This document shows, in pieces, positions 20,534-27,956 of a stretch of DNA of 64,000 bases. How positions within the stretch are numbered: position 1 is the first letter of the stretch; every line of letters begins with the position of its first letter. The notes beneath the pieces are model-generated. The model was not told the DNA's origin. It worked only from the letters and a program-made list of their open reading frames with translations, and did no database searches. The stretch is taken from positions 1,922,001 through 1,986,000 of the forward strand of contig NZ_CP065383.1 in NCBI RefSeq assembly GCF_015775515.1. Direction: 5' to 3'. A program made the position numbers and the translations under genes. The stretch comes from Atribacter laminatus (GTDB taxonomy: Bacteria; Atribacterota; Atribacteria; Atribacterales; Atribacteraceae).

Positions 20534-21679
20534 TTAAAAAGGTGGCCATTCATAGTTTGGTGAAAGATAAGTATCTTGACCAAAATTGATGAAGGACAAG
20601 GGAACCGTGTGGGTAGTTTTCTGCACTATCGGTTGGTTAGGAGTAAGAGTATTTTGATATGAGCCTTGAGCTGAAAAATAGGAATCCTGTCGGTTTAAAA
20701 AGAAATACCACCCTAAGCCTGAAGCTATAAGGAAAACGATAATGCCAGTAATTAGCTGATAACCACTTTTTTTATTCCAAAGAAGAAGACCAATGATAGT
20801 CAAAAATGAAATCGGAAGAAACAGCAGCTGATTTTGAAAAAGAACAAAAGAGAGAAAGATGACGCTAATCATCCAGAAAATTCTTACCTTACCTTGAAAA
20901 AAGAGCAATCCGAGAAAGGGATAAATAAACCAGAGTTTAGAAAAAAACATCAGTAAATTATATAAAGATGTAGTCAAAAATTCTGGGAATGAATATATCA
21001 GGTTCATTGGAGAAGTATTGAGAAATAAAAAGGGATTACCGGAAAAAACCCAATTAAAAAAGAGAATAGTAATTAGGAAAAAAGATGGAGGGAAGAGTGA
21101 TACCAGAAAAAGAGATACTTTTCTTGAGAGTGAATCGTGGAAAAATAACCATTGAAAAATAATAACCGGAATACAAAACCAGAGGAATGATAGATGAGTT
21201 AAAGTTCCCACACCAAGGCTTATGCCTGCGAGAAAGAAAAAGTAAATTGATTGGGTTTCGTGGTATTGAACGATATAAGCTATGACGATGACGATAAAAA
21301 GAGCGAGCAGAAAATATGATGGTGAGGAGATTGACAAAAGAAAAAAAGGAGAAGAAATAATCAAGAGAATAAAAAAAGGGGGAAGATTTTTATTAATAAT
21401 AATTTTGGATAATAGCCAAACTGCAAAAGTTCCTATTACCGGAGGTATGAGGTTGGGAAAATAGCCAATCAAAGCAAAGAAGAAAGGCAAAAAGGGATAG
21501 GCAAGAAAGAGTATTTTCGGTTGTTCGGCTCCGGAAGAAAAGAAGATTTGTGCCCGGTTACTATAAAAATCGACTTCGGACGATATCAACCCTTTTTCTC
21601 GTGCTAAAAGAGTAAAGAAATAAAAGAGAAAAAAGCAGAATACATAGAAAATAATAGCAGGAATGGTTTTTTTATTCAT
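20534..21679 (-). CDS. polytopic membrane protein of exopolysaccharide operon
   Basis: 381 aa with about ten hydrophobic helices, beginning 'AIIFYVFCFFLFYFFTLLA'. The layout, a charged loop after helix 1 ('REKGLISSEVDFYSNRAQIF') followed by many short helices and a soluble C-terminal tail of about 55 residues, resembles PMT/GT39-like or polymerase-like membrane enzymes. I cannot identify a catalytic motif. Its start overlaps the end of the GT2 gene by 8 nt (ATGAATAA), so it is translated with the synthase and probably serves the same polymer. Confidence 0.75.
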   Translation of the reverse strand: MNKKTIPAIIFYVFCFFLFYFFTLLAREKGLISSEVDFYSNRAQIFFSSGAEQPKILFLAYPFLPFFFALIGYFPNLIPPVIGTFAVWLLSKIIINKNLPPFFILLIISSPFFLLSISSPSYFLLALFIVIVIAYIVQYHETQSIYFFFLAGISLGVGTLTHLSFLWFCIPVIIFQWLFFHDSLSRKVSLFLVSLFPPSFFLITILFFNWVFSGNPFLFLNTSPMNLIYSFPEFLTTSLYNLLMFFSKLWFIYPFLGLLFFQGKVRIFWMISVIFLSFVLFQNQLLFLPISFLTIIGLLLWNKKSGYQLITGIIVFLIASGLGWYFFLNRQDSYFSAQGSYQNTLTPNQPIVQKTTHTVPLSFINFGQDTYLSPNYEWPPF

Positions 21680-23531
21680 CTTGTTTTTCCTCTAACTGTA
21701 ACCCATGAATAGTTTTTTCCCAGAAGAAGGGACGAGTAAAGAGCTGGAAAATACCTTTCCAAGCAGCAATGCTAGTCAACCACCAATATAAAGGATTTAA
21801 AAGTGAATAAAAAATTAGCTTGTCAATACCTCTTCTGAAAACTGCCAACATGCTTAGATAAATCCCTAAAAAATTACCGATGATAAGGTTAAAAACTCCT
21901 AAGTATAAAATGGGTCCGGAAAAATAGCTTTGCAGAAATTCACCCCGATTGAAAAGCCAGATAAAAAAGAGAATCCACAAAATGAGAGAACATGCCTGCC
22001 CAAGAGTGGTTCCACCAATAAATACTTGGAGGGTAAACCATCCTTTCCAACCTGAATTTCGGATAACCTGGAGAGGATGGCGATTATGAACTAAAAAAGT
22101 TTGTAGGTACCCCTTCAGCCATCGTGAACGTTGTCGAATCCAATTTTTTATCTGGCTATTCGCTTCTTCAAAAGTTGTTGAAGGAAGAACTCCGACCCGA
22201 TAGCCTCGATAGCTGGCTCTCATGCCTAAATCAGCATCTTCAGTAACATTATACGGATCCCATCCTCCTAATTCTCGTAGGATTTGGGTACGAAAATGAT
22301 TGGATGTTCCTCCGAGAGGTATGGGTAAATGATTGATATAAAGACCTGGAAGGAGGTAATCAAACCAGTAGGAATATTCTAAAGTGAATAATCGAGTGAG
22401 GAAATTTTGGTTGGCATTATAGAAATTGAGAGCGTTTTGAAAACACATAATATCCGGGGATGATGAGCGAAAATAAGCTACCGATTTTTTTAGCTGATCT
22501 CTTTCTGGGATATCCTCTGCATCATATATAGTGAGAAATTCACCCCGTGCAAAAGCCAGCCCAAAATTGCAGGCTCGAGGTTTGGTTTTGGGTATTCCTT
22601 CGGGAACAATGACAAAGCGAACGTTGTAAGGTGGTTTTTCGGCTTTACAATGAATCAAGGTTTCATGATCATCTTCTTCGATAAGAAATATGACATCAAG
22701 TTTTTCAGGTGGATAATCAAGATTTCGGATAGCGGTTGTCAGTTGACGAATCACGCTTTGTGGTTCGTAGTAAAGAGGTAATAAAATGCTATAAATGGGA
22801 AGATCACCGGAACGAATCTGATCCTCATTTTTTTTGAATAACGAGCTTGTTGCGTCAAGCTTTGCTCCGGAAGAGCTCAGTACGAATCGAAATATTACAT
22901 TCATTGCATAAAAAAGATTAGCTAAACCCAATAAAATTAGGACAGTTAATCGGGGGAGAGTAAAAATGCCAATAACAATGAGAGCACACAAAAATCCTAA
23001 GCCAATCCACTGAACAGGAGTAAAGACTCTTATTGCTGATTCCTCTGGAGAGCGATAAAAAAGACCGGAAGTTGCTTCTTGTAAAAATTTATCTTTAAAA
23101 AAGATGTGAGCCAGCCAATCTAATTCATAGAGCGTGATCAATTTAAAAACCAGTTTTTTTTCAGGAAACTTTTTCTCTAAAAAATGTTGAAGAGAAGAGT
23201 TTTTGGGGTTGGGAGTAAGGATTTCTAATTCATCCTGATTGTAGCGATAGGGGAAAAAGGAAAATTGAAAAAAGTCTTGGGAACTAAAAACCGAAAGCAG
23301 TTCCGGATCGATTTTTTGAGTAAGAAGTTTTAAATTTTCTCCAGCGTATTCAAAAGAACCTTGTTGGGTGATAACCTGATAGAGTTGGATAGGATTTACA
23401 AAACCAAGAGAAATAAGAATTTCTCCCAAAAGACTCCCGGTTTCCTTTTGGAGTTCAAGAGCCTGAGCTAACTGTTCTTTGGTTATTAAATTTTTTTCAA
23501 GTAATATTTCACCTATGGGTTTACTAATCAT
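21672..23531 (-). CDS. MshEN-GT2 fusion: cellulose-synthase-like membrane glycosyltransferase
   Basis: 619 aa. Residues 5-57 are two tandem 24-residue repeats of the GSPII_E/MshEN type ('IGEILLEKNLITKEQLAQAL' and 'LGEILISLGFVNPIQLYQV'), a fold that binds c-di-GMP in MshE. Two helices lie at about 175-215. The GT2 catalytic domain follows with DAED (337-340), EDAD (431-434) and QRSRW (467-471), the processive-synthase D,D,D,QxxRW set. Further helices close the C-terminus. It is an inner-membrane polysaccharide synthase. The Arg that opens each MshEN motif is replaced (Pro, Leu), so c-di-GMP binding is uncertain. The gene overlaps both neighbours and is the middle of a three-gene operon. Confidence 0.9.
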   Translation of the reverse strand: MISKPIGEILLEKNLITKEQLAQALELQKETGSLLGEILISLGFVNPIQLYQVITQQGSFEYAGENLKLLTQKIDPELLSVFSSQDFFQFSFFPYRYNQDELEILTPNPKNSSLQHFLEKKFPEKKLVFKLITLYELDWLAHIFFKDKFLQEATSGLFYRSPEESAIRVFTPVQWIGLGFLCALIVIGIFTLPRLTVLILLGLANLFYAMNVIFRFVLSSSGAKLDATSSLFKKNEDQIRSGDLPIYSILLPLYYEPQSVIRQLTTAIRNLDYPPEKLDVIFLIEEDDHETLIHCKAEKPPYNVRFVIVPEGIPKTKPRACNFGLAFARGEFLTIYDAEDIPERDQLKKSVAYFRSSSPDIMCFQNALNFYNANQNFLTRLFTLEYSYWFDYLLPGLYINHLPIPLGGTSNHFRTQILRELGGWDPYNVTEDADLGMRASYRGYRVGVLPSTTFEEANSQIKNWIRQRSRWLKGYLQTFLVHNRHPLQVIRNSGWKGWFTLQVFIGGTTLGQACSLILWILFFIWLFNRGEFLQSYFSGPILYLGVFNLIIGNFLGIYLSMLAVFRRGIDKLIFYSLLNPLYWWLTSIAAWKGIFQLFTRPFFWEKTIHGLQLEEKQDE

Positions 23532-23839: not shown

Positions 23840-23994
23840 TATTTCTCCCTCCATGATAGTTTATCGGACAAATGGTGAATTTTATTATGTGTAACCGGGT
23901 TATGTTTTAGCAATTATCAGAAAATGAGTCGATAGATAGCTGGGAAGGATATAATATGATTATTCTTTCATGATGGTAAATGGAGATGATGATT

Positions 23995-25062
23995 ATGCCG
24001 ATTGCCCTTATAATGGCTGGTGGGAAAGGTGAGCGTCTCTGGCCGTTAAGTACCTCAAAAAAACCAAAACAATTTACAGCGTTAATGGACAAAACATTTT
24101 TTCAAATGACTGTTGACCGAGTTCTTCCTTTGGTGGGAGAAGACGGTATTTATGTGGTAACCCAGGAAAATTTTAAATCCGAAATCTTAAAGGAAGTTCC
24201 TTATTTATTAGAAAAAAATATCATCCTTGAACCAGTTGGGAGAAATACTGCTCCCTGTATTGGGTTAGGTGCACTCACAATAGCTCGTAAGAACCCCAAT
24301 GAAGTCATGATTGTAATTCCATCTGATCACCTGATTTTCGATGAAGAAAGATTTCGTGAAGTTGTTCGTTTTGGTTGTGAAGTCGGGATGAAAGATTATC
24401 TGATTACTTTAGGAATAACACCAACTGAAGCCCACACTGGTTATGGTTATATCCATTATGGGGATGAAAAATTTTGCAAACAAGATATAAAAGCCTGTCA
24501 GGTGCTTGGATTTATTGAGAAGCCGGATATTAAAAAAGCAAATTACTATTTTTCCAATCCTACCTATCTGTGGAACAGTGGAATATTTATTTGGAAAGCT
24601 CAAACCATTTTAGAAGAAATAACAACCCATATGCCCAGTCTTTTTCAGGGACTTAACACCATTCAACACTATTGGGGAAGGCCAGAGTTAGAAACCGTGA
24701 AATCTCAGGTATTCAATACACTTCCATCGACTTCCATCGATTACGGTATTATGGAGAAATCAGAGAGAGTGTTGGTAATCCCAGCTACTTTCCAATGGAA
24801 CGACATTGGATCTTGGTCGGCACTGGAAAAAGTATTTTCTCAGGATAAATCAAAAAATTTATCCATTGGTTCCTATTATGGATTACAGAGTCAAAATAAT
24901 ATTATCTATTCCCAAAAACCAATTATAACCTTTGGAGTTAATGATTTGATTATTGTTGAATCGGATTCTGCTGTTTTGGTGATGCACAAAAGTCTTGATC
25001 AAAAAATCAAAGAGTTAATACAGGAACTTAAAAACAACGACCAGTTCAAGCATCTTACCTAA
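23995..25062 (+). CDS. manC: mannose-1-phosphate guanylyltransferase (GDP-mannose pyrophosphorylase)
   Basis: 355 aa from ATG 23995 (GGAG 9 nt upstream); ATG 23980 would add five residues. The nucleotidyltransferase signature is 'LIMAGGKGERLWPLS', then 'EPVGRNTAPCIGLGA', 'VIPSDHLIFDE' and 'GFIEKPDIKKANYY'. It makes GDP-mannose from mannose-1-phosphate and GTP. The C-terminal cupin (PMI) domain of bifunctional AlgA/ManC enzymes is absent; a cupin of that type is encoded separately, convergent, at 25083-25685. It lies head-to-head with the polysaccharide synthase operon, so it probably supplies the sugar nucleotide. Confidence 0.92.
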   Translation: MPIALIMAGGKGERLWPLSTSKKPKQFTALMDKTFFQMTVDRVLPLVGEDGIYVVTQENFKSEILKEVPYLLEKNIILEPVGRNTAPCIGLGALTIARKNPNEVMIVIPSDHLIFDEERFREVVRFGCEVGMKDYLITLGITPTEAHTGYGYIHYGDEKFCKQDIKACQVLGFIEKPDIKKANYYFSNPTYLWNSGIFIWKAQTILEEITTHMPSLFQGLNTIQHYWGRPELETVKSQVFNTLPSTSIDYGIMEKSERVLVIPATFQWNDIGSWSALEKVFSQDKSKNLSIGSYYGLQSQNNIIYSQKPIITFGVNDLIIVESDSAVLVMHKSLDQKIKELIQELKNNDQFKHLT

Positions 25063-25082: not shown

Positions 25083-25685
25083 CTAAATTATTTCACTTCG
25101 GTTAAAATCGTCTTCAATACGAACAATATCTTCTTCGGAGATACAATTACCGTTTTGAACTTCAATTATTTCCAGGAGTTCATCGCCGCGATTTTCCATT
25201 CGGTGGAAGGTCTGCATGGGAATATAGGTACTCTGATTCGGATCTAAAATGAAGGTTTGATCTCCAACGGTGACCAATGCTACTCCTTTGACTACCAACC
25301 AGTATTCATTGCGATGGTAATGCATTTGTAAGCTTAAACGGTAACCAGGATAAACAACAATTTTTTTAACCTTGTAGTGAGGTCCCTGGTCGATAATGGC
25401 ATAATATCCCCAGGGTTTTTCGATTTGAGTCGGTTCTTTTTGTGCAGAATCTTCAGAAAATTCATTTTTATTTCTTAGGTTTACTTCATTTTCAAGACAA
25501 ACTGATAAATTACTTTTTTCGTTTGCTTTTAGATAAATCGGAGTAGAAGGTGTTGATTTTTTTTCAGGTATAAAGAGGCCATTTGATAAAAAGTGATCAG
25601 TTTCAACCTCATCTAAGCTTTTTTTGTCAAATTGCTGGCTTATATCACTCTTTGAAGTTGGAGATTTACTATCTTTACGAGCCAT
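25083..25685 (-). CDS. PMI-type II cupin protein (mannose-6-phosphate isomerase-like)
   Basis: 200 aa. Residues 1-80 are charged and low in complexity. Residues 85-190 form a cupin matching the C-terminal domain of AlgA/ManC: 'EKPWGYYAIIDQGPHYKVKK', 'YRLSLQMHYHRNEYWLVVKG' (metal ligands H, H, E) and 'STYIPMQTFHRMENRGD' (last His). It may isomerise mannose-6-phosphate and fructose-6-phosphate or act as a cupin partner of ManC. It is transcribed toward manC, 20 nt apart. It has AGGAGG ahead of ATG and a GEMM-like riboswitch in its leader, so its expression is probably ligand controlled. Confidence 0.85.
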   Translation of the reverse strand: MARKDSKSPTSKSDISQQFDKKSLDEVETDHFLSNGLFIPEKKSTPSTPIYLKANEKSNLSVCLENEVNLRNKNEFSEDSAQKEPTQIEKPWGYYAIIDQGPHYKVKKIVVYPGYRLSLQMHYHRNEYWLVVKGVALVTVGDQTFILDPNQSTYIPMQTFHRMENRGDELLEIIEVQNGNCISEEDIVRIEDDFNRSEII

Positions 25686-25767
25686 TTTATAAATCCTCCT
25701 ATGGAAAACTTTCCTATGGAAATGGTTCGTATTTTACAAGTCATCATTTCGTTTTTTAGGTGGATTT

Positions 25768-25858
25768 TGGCGGCTCGACTGCCATGGCATATAAACGCTT
25801 TAGGCTCTTAGCTTTGCGCCTTTTCCTTTAGGAAAGTTTGCCTTTTCAGGTACCCATA
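25768..25858 (-). promoter_or_regulatory. GEMM / c-di-GMP-I riboswitch candidate
   Basis: Read on the minus strand, the leader of the PMI-type cupin gene contains the ordered conserved blocks of this class: GAAAAGGCAAAC, then a TTTCC-TAAA-GGAAA tetraloop hairpin, GGCGCAAAGC, AGAGCCTAAA, an ATGCCATGGCAG arm and GTCGAGCCGCC. The consensus is GGCAAAC, hairpin, GACGCAAAGC, GGNCTAA, GCCGGGTTGCC. The aptamer ends about 80 nt before the start codon. Between lies CCATTTCCATAGGAAAG...TTTTCCATAGGAGG, in which the ribosome site can pair with upstream TTTCC, suggesting translational control. No terminator U-tract is seen. One consensus A is G here. Confidence 0.75.
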
Positions 25859-25975
25859 CTTTTTCATATATTATCGGCAAAAAAGAAATTTCCTTTAGAA
25901 TAGAATTAATATATTTAATAAGTTAGACAAAAAATAAATATACTATTTGAATCAGAAAATTTATCGAATAAATAG

Positions 25976-26933: not shown

Positions 26934-27956
26934 TTATTGAAGTTCCTCGAAATATTCAAAAGAATCAATCAAATCTAAGTAAACTCCATCAAAACCAGCT
27001 TTGAGTATTTTATCAAGATAAGCATCTGGATTTCCAAAAATTATTTGCTGCCAATTTTTATCCCAGTAACGAATTTTATAATTTCCACTCCAATCTGGGT
27101 TTTCTTCTTCTAACCAAGGTGGAGGATTGATATCCCATTCTTTTTGCCAATAATAGCGATAATTTTCTGCTTCTCCAATTGAGAGATAGGATAGGACTAA
27201 ACGCTTACCACCATTCATTTTTTCTTTTAAATGGTCAATATCTTCATGGGTAAACATTTCATCCTTTGAAAAAAAGGCATCAATTATGAATAGGTCGTAA
27301 TTGGTGCGAGAAAGAGCTTCAATCATTTCTTCGGTATTAGAAAAGCTTGAAGGATTAATGAAATAGAGAAAATTCTTGGCATGAATTATTTTTTCAATAT
27401 TTTCGGAGTTTGCACGATAGGGCACCGAAGAGTTATCCGGAATAATATTGAGTTCTCGGCTTTCAGCAGGGAAACTAATAAATTGCTGTAAATTGTTACT
27501 TTCAAGGGAGTTCTTGATGTTGAAAGGCTCTGAGCAATAATCGGTAACTAAGACTGCTTTACCCAAAACTCGAATTTTATTCAAGAAACCAAGCCAATTT
27601 GAAGTTATGATTTCCGGTGTATGTTCATCATCGCCAAGAAAACCAAAATATAATTCTTCTTGGCCAACCCCATCTATTGCTGAGAGGTATTTGGAGATCA
27701 GCACACCTTCCGGTTCGCCATTACTAGTAAGAAGGCTAAGTCCATTCTGAGGAACAATTATAAAATAGGGATGAAATAGATGAGAATATCGGGAAATTAC
27801 CTGGATAAAATGTCGCATCTCATCTCGATAAAAAAAAGAATCACTATCAGAAAGGTTTTGGTTTATCAAATCTTGGCAATAGGTTACTCCCGATAGTACG
27901 ATAATAAAAAGGAGAATAGTATAAGCAATCTGATTTAAAAAGAATATTTTTCGCAT
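26934..27956 (-). CDS. secreted GH114 / TM1410-like glycoside hydrolase
   Basis: 340 aa with a signal peptide (cleavage near VTYCQ). The C-terminal half matches the TM1410/GH114 family: 'LVLSYLSIGEAENYRYYW', 'ENPDWSGNYKIRYWDKNW' and 'AGFDGVYLDLIDSFEYF', with the acidic residues expected in a TIM barrel. The N-terminal part is a second alpha/beta domain also seen in long TM1410 homologues. GH114 members include endo-alpha-1,4-polygalactosaminidase, an exopolysaccharide-degrading enzyme. Its place 3 kb from the polysaccharide synthase suggests processing of that or a related polymer. The ribosome site is weak. Confidence 0.85.
   Translation of the reverse strand: MRKIFFLNQIAYTILLFIIVLSGVTYCQDLINQNLSDSDSFFYRDEMRHFIQVISRYSHLFHPYFIIVPQNGLSLLTSNGEPEGVLISKYLSAIDGVGQEELYFGFLGDDEHTPEIITSNWLGFLNKIRVLGKAVLVTDYCSEPFNIKNSLESNNLQQFISFPAESRELNIIPDNSSVPYRANSENIEKIIHAKNFLYFINPSSFSNTEEMIEALSRTNYDLFIIDAFFSKDEMFTHEDIDHLKEKMNGGKRLVLSYLSIGEAENYRYYWQKEWDINPPPWLEEENPDWSGNYKIRYWDKNWQQIIFGNPDAYLDKILKAGFDGVYLDLIDSFEYFEELQ

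Follow-up and report, generated by a model that had tools for sequence, protein, structure and literature searches.

A c-di-GMP-I riboswitch candidate with a P2-copying linker before a mannose-6-phosphate isomerase-type gene of Atribacter laminatus

The c-di-GMP-I riboswitches are an RNA class that is itself already known. The aptamer described here resembles Vc2 of Vibrio cholerae (RF01051) in its full-length model match, in the equivalents of G20, G21-C46 and C92, and in the P1/P2/P3 layout, and it differs from riboswitches such as Vc2 in having a UAAA/CAAA P2 loop and a cytosolic sugar-phosphate enzyme as its target. The proposed mode of control is similar to that of Cd1 of Clostridioides difficile, an OFF switch in which the ligand-free fold destroys the aptamer and the OFF element is compatible with the intact aptamer (PMC9262584); however, control by Cd1 is exerted on transcription, and there the switching strand contacts the 3' side of the aptamer (G147-C87, C148-G86), whereas here translation would be controlled and the switching strand would pair with the 5' core and P2 strand. 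At the protein level, the product of a neighboring gene combines an MshE-type domain (NF053729) with a family 2 glycosyltransferase, as in the NfrB-type c-di-GMP-controlled glycosyltransferases (PMC8669469), but the MshE-type domain lies at the N terminus, and none of the aligned orthologs retains either of the two motif arginines. Other GEMM-I leaders of Atribacterota have the same aptamer and, within the order, mostly also a sigma-28-type promoter; unlike the present one, those examined mostly precede secreted lipoproteins, and no comparable P2-mimic linker was seen in them. In the open-access papers searched, we found no c-di-GMP riboswitch connected with a GDP-mannose gene or with one for mannose-6-phosphate isomerase, and the target gene, the P2-mimic platform and the sigma-28 pairing look new as judged from that literature.

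Using cmscan with all Rfam families, we searched the window, i.e., the whole 64-kb stretch of DNA that was analyzed, and found no match to families other than RF01051 (c-di-GMP-I / GEMM-I). The RF01051 match lies on the minus strand at 25766-25852, with 69.8 bits at E = 1.3e-11 (the gathering score is 35), and the alignment is full length (model positions 1-87 of 87). The first-pass annotation had proposed a GEMM riboswitch from conserved blocks on the minus strand of 25685-25858 and had named this model as the appropriate check; all the blocks are present, in the order quoted, and the score is well above the threshold. The elements of the aptamer are the following:

25766..25852, minus strand: c-di-GMP-I (GEMM-I) aptamer, RF01051 (cmscan, 69.8 bits)
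25852..25856, minus strand: P1 5' strand UGGGU, pairing with 25761-25765 in six genus sequences
25761..25765, minus strand: P1 3' strand AUCCA, partner of the P1 5' strand
25831..25842, minus strand: GGCAAACUUUCC, formed by the aptamer core with the 5' strand of P2 and complementary to the linker mimic

The equivalents of G20 (G25842) and C92 (C25770) are both intact and, with the P1 helix present as well, the junction whose absence would have spoken against the original proposal is in place. The P1 strands are paired in 100% of cells in 6/6 genus sequences, among which they vary by G-C/G-U changes with pairing kept; in the sister genus (G007), the P1 position reads GGAA:UUCC, i.e., the bases are different and the pairing is kept. 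We consider membership in the c-di-GMP-I class to be virtually certain. The tetraloop hairpin of the first-pass annotation is found in its expected place in the order of blocks, but the P2 loop (25827-25830, minus strand) is UAAA, or CAAA in some relatives and G007, and not GNRA, which is the P2 loop of most other GEMM aptamers compared. In the class, a GNRA tetraloop of P2 docks on P3 and is auxiliary, the model score not needing it. The non-GNRA loop may weaken docking and affinity.

The GEMM-I aptamers include cGAMP-sensing members, which carry A20 (GEMM-Ib), whereas position 20 is G in our aptamer. In the enzymes that make cGAMP (Hypr), Ser replaces Asp at the specificity position. The genome has 17 GGDEF domains, every readable signature keeps Asp at this position, and no Ser was found there among the domains with a readable signature; a Hypr cyclase was rejected on these grounds, two further domains being degenerate. 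Because G20 is kept and the readable GGDEF signatures keep Asp, c-di-GMP is likelier than cGAMP, and we predict from sequence that it is very probably the ligand. Thus, of the two messengers that had been suggested at first, c-di-GMP is favored and cGAMP has become less likely. A response to 3',3'-cGAMP, or to both cyclic dinucleotides, would be in line with the existence of A20 members in the class, one of them elsewhere in the phylum, yet the G at position 20 and the absence of Ser from the readable GGDEF signatures make it highly improbable. The A20 aptamer of the phylum (L015, G045:C29:20570-20657) belongs to another family and carries the cGAMP-type residue in the context AGCAAAC.

The predicted target gene and two of its neighbors are the following:

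25083..25685, minus strand: gene for a PMI-type cupin of 200 aa, predicted target of the riboswitch (PF01050, E = 8.5e-41, residues 79-191)
23980..25062, plus strand: mannose-1-phosphate guanylyltransferase (ManC-like) gene without PMI domain, convergent neighbor (TIGR01479 3-352, PF00483, PF22640)
21672..23531, minus strand: family 2 glycosyltransferase gene with N-terminal MshE-type c-di-GMP domain (NF053729, 67.2 bits, cut-off 38; PF13632)

The gene had been read as a PMI-like cupin, and the PF01050 match (139.2 bits, cut-off 23.6) bears this out; the metal-binding motif QxHxHR is present in the translation (QMHYHRNEYW). The cupin covers only the C-terminal domain of the GMP-PMI model (TIGR01479, positions 353-466 of 467, 143 bits) and the ManC-like gene only its N-terminal part (315 bits), in place of a single chain with both domains and more than 372.95 bits. 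The two parts match opposite ends of TIGR01479; therefore, the usual GMP-PMI fusion is split here, with one gene on each strand. Only one strong PF01050 match exists in the genome, that of the cupin (140 bits; three others have at most 24 bits), and neither a type I PMI (PF20511) nor a bifunctional PGI/PMI domain (PF10432) was found in the genome; judged by known families, the cupin is likely to be its sole mannose-6-phosphate isomerase. The proteins closest to it are from Candidatus Atribacteria, and when solved structures were searched by sequence for close relatives of the PMI, only distant oxalate decarboxylase cupins were returned. We infer that the cupin participates in GDP-mannose supply. 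An exported GH114 / TM1410-family glycoside hydrolase gene (26934-27956, minus strand) is located near the sugar genes. The MshE-type domain consists of two 24-residue motifs RLGxx..Q with a 5-residue spacer (PMC5013675); in the neighboring glycosyltransferase, the 24-5-24 spacing and both Gln are kept, and both Arg are replaced.

The GEMM aptamer is directly upstream of the cupin in 6/6 genus genomes, with nearly equal spacing, and the MshE-type glycosyltransferase and ManC genes adjoin the cupin in the same six. In G007, GEMM is also found directly before the same PMI-type cupin, and in G008 a gene for a C39-like lipoprotein stands between GEMM and the cupin, an arrangement that hints at how the cupin acquired riboswitch control. 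The glycosyltransferase and ManC genes share one contig in G007 and G009; the lack of GEMM-cupin in G009 was rejected as a true absence, as the contig stops inside the leader. From synteny alone, the cupin and its riboswitch may be linked to polymer synthesis.

Downstream of the aptamer, the linker (~80 nt) and the start of the gene contain the following elements:

25703..25714, minus strand: linker switching strand GGAAAGUUUUCC, a copy of the P2 hairpin strand, forming a duplex with 25831-25842
25721..25730, minus strand: start-codon hairpin 5' arm ACGAACCAUU, 10/10 positions invariant, pairing with 25677-25686 in 98% of cells
25677..25686, minus strand: start-codon hairpin 3' arm, covering AUG and codons 2-3, pairing with 25721-25730
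25695..25700, minus strand: Shine-Dalgarno (SD) sequence AGGAGG, invariant in six genomes

Two strands of the linker, ACGAACCAUU and GGAAAGUUU-CC, are invariant across the six genomes. The second one pairs with the aptamer core/P2 5' strand GGCAAACUUUCC at 11/12 positions, and the 3' end of GGAAAGUUUUCC, UUUCC, doubles as an anti-SD. The energy of the mimic duplex (25831-25842 with 25703-25714) is -15.1 kcal/mol in this species and from -14.3 to -15.3 kcal/mol across the genus; dinucleotide-shuffled linkers paired as well in 0, 1, 1, 0, 1 and 2 of 1000 cases for the six genus sequences (0/1000 for this species). Of the mimic columns that pair with the aptamer, taken together with one flanking base, 12/12 are invariant, versus 21/46 of the remaining linker columns (Fisher p = 0.0004, a guide only, since it comes from six related genomes), and the variable position of the mimic strand is its single unpaired one. 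The six genus sequences are too similar to show covariation in the platform helices, where double changes number zero. For G007, the strand of P2 and the linker read AAAUUCUCC and GGAGCGUUU, versus AAACUUUCC and GGAAAGUUU in the genus, with 8/9 positions still paired, and sequence inspection revealed that one of the 8 pairs is kept via changes on both sides; taken alone, the G007 duplex is unexceptional (84/1000 shuffles are as good). It should be noted that P2 and the linker hairpin are both near-palindromes, which accounts for part of the complementarity. The idea that the P2-mimic platform is general to Atribacterota GEMMs was rejected because no equally strong duplex was found among the other leaders tested; the duplex of one of them (L005) beats 396/400 shuffles, yet it is weaker than the one described here.

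No transcription terminator-like site was found in the leader. Because of this, and because the SD is sequestered by the TTTCC elements in the conserved fold, translational gating, as first suggested, is the best reading, and we predict control at translation with good confidence. The suggested pairing of TTTCC with AGGAGG survives as part of the conserved start-site hairpin; the lowest-energy fold of this species instead pairs the SD with the aptamer 3' strand, and this fold is not conserved. Because it copies the P2 hairpin, the switching strand has greater specificity than the TTTCC elements alone.

Representing the leader as two exclusive states, we propose the following OFF switch: (i) without c-di-GMP, the linker strand GGAAAGUUUUCC would bind GGCAAACUUUCC in the core and P2 of the aptamer, so that the aptamer would be broken, the anti-SD removed and the start-codon hairpin excluded, and the cupin would be translated; (ii) with c-di-GMP, the aptamer would hold and the linker would be freed, and the freed linker would form the hairpin ACGAACCAUU:AAUGG(C/U)UCGU together with UUUCC:GGAGG, hiding the AUG and SD and turning translation off. 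The aptamer-mimic pairing and the start hairpin are mutually exclusive unless a pseudoknot is formed. The calculated costs of opening the region from SD to AUG, with the aptamer enforced versus mimic-paired, are 8.4 versus 5.7 kcal/mol in G000, 11.5 versus 4.6 in G005, 13.5 versus 4.0 in G002, 12.2 versus 6.0 in both G001 and G003, 13.1 versus 6.7 in G004, and 15.1 versus 5.5 in G007. Aptamer formation raises the cost in 7/7 leaders (six genus leaders and G007); therefore, the ligand would close the start site. Nearest-neighbor energies ignore tertiary contacts and the ligand, and because such energies cannot settle the direction, we predict OFF only as the somewhat more probable one. At full length, the aptamer state in G002 and G007 is favored over the mimic state by ~4-6 kcal/mol, and switching there would therefore have to be kinetic.

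In this species, the aptamer 3' strand can also pair with the SD and codons 2-3, and this third fold equals or exceeds the mimic state in stability; it would hide the SD without ligand and therefore would give an ON switch. In such a translational ON switch, the ligand-free 3' strand (CGAGCCGCCAAAAUCCACCU) would hold the SD helix, and c-di-GMP, by forming P1, would remove AUCCA and free the SD. This fold is the lowest-energy one of the species' own leader, the aptamer and the SD helix are mutually exclusive, and the switch would raise mannose supply alongside c-di-GMP-activated polymer synthesis. An OFF switch would lower mannose supply while c-di-GMP activates the neighboring MshE-type glycosyltransferase, provided that its domain binds and is activated, and this counts against OFF. 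However, the SD helix costs 11-16 kcal/mol in five relatives, so it is not conserved, and the start hairpin still hides the SD and AUG when the aptamer is enforced. An ON model built from the own-leader lowest-energy fold alone looked convincing and was dropped for lack of conservation of the helix; we regard the ON direction as rather unlikely.

Equilibrium folding of whole leaders was uninformative as a predictor of direction, the SD being hidden in both states in most relatives. Such folds, which hide the start site with or without the aptamer, together with the non-GNRA P2 loop (UAAA/CAAA), would also fit a relic, i.e., an aptamer that regulates no longer, with the SD hidden by the start hairpin in either state. 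Yet six species have retained the aptamer core, the pairing of P1 and the strands of the platform, and the sister genus has retained the aptamer; loss of function would allow drift, so this conservation argues against a relic, which is very unlikely. The translational OFF switch remains the favored reading.

Upstream of the aptamer, we found one more element:

25871..25897, minus strand: sigma-28 (FliA/SigD/WhiG)-type promoter TAAA-N15-GCCGATAA, 12/12 consensus positions

The consensus of sigma-28 promoters is TAAA-N15-GCCGATAA. The site (TAAAGGAAATTTCTTTTTTGCCGATAA) is located 18 nt upstream of the aptamer, and each of the six genus genomes has it with a score of 11-12/12. Sites scoring 11-12/12 precede 18/27 GEMM aptamers examined in the order and 0/16 in other families of the phylum. 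The form that precedes most GEMM-I aptamers of the order is TAAA-N15-(G/T)CCGATA (GEMM leaders L001-L032, L058-L077). Genome-wide, the looser pattern TAAA-N15-GYCGATA (14 sites versus 12 in the control) was uninformative alone; the tighter pattern TAAAG-N14-KCCGATAW, drawn up after inspecting the three GEMM leaders, which make up 3 of its 8 sites, gave 8 sites versus 1 in the reversed control. The genome encodes a sigma factor of the FliA/WhiG family (232.5 bits against a cut-off of 189.6), no flagellar genes were recognized by eye in the 19 kb around its gene, and the published description of the genus Atribacter gives it as non-motile (PMC7736352). Use of the sigma-28-type promoter is predicted from these data. 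A further site of this type (L151, G000:C1:13959-13985, minus strand) is found 9 nt before a gene covering a GGDEF domain; hence, the factor may also control c-di-GMP synthesis. The whole model, in which a sigma-28-type promoter is followed by a c-di-GMP-I riboswitch that controls translation of the only recognizable mannose-6-phosphate isomerase, is in our view fairly probable.

The genome of the species (one contig, 3,101,225 bases) contains three RF01051 aptamers. The other two precede secreted lipoprotein genes, one C39-peptidase-like and one metalloprotease-like according to their translations, which were read directly and not by family search. Up to 15 GEMM-I aptamers per genome are found elsewhere (G028, G033, G043 and others), some as close tandem pairs.

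We tentatively suggest, as a possibility that falls short of probable, an order-wide two-key regulon in which an orphan sigma-28-family factor would act on transcription and c-di-GMP riboswitches on translation, and which would gate the sole entry to mannose-6-phosphate via a P2-copying platform, beside a glycosyltransferase sensing the same messenger by a protein domain. If this is true, one second messenger sets the sugar precursor supply through RNA and probably the neighboring glycosyltransferase through protein. The Atribacterota are a little-studied phylum with very few isolates. GEMM aptamers and sigma-28-type promoters occurring together across the order offer a regulon that can be put to the test, in a group whose described genus, Atribacter, lacks motility (PMC7736352).
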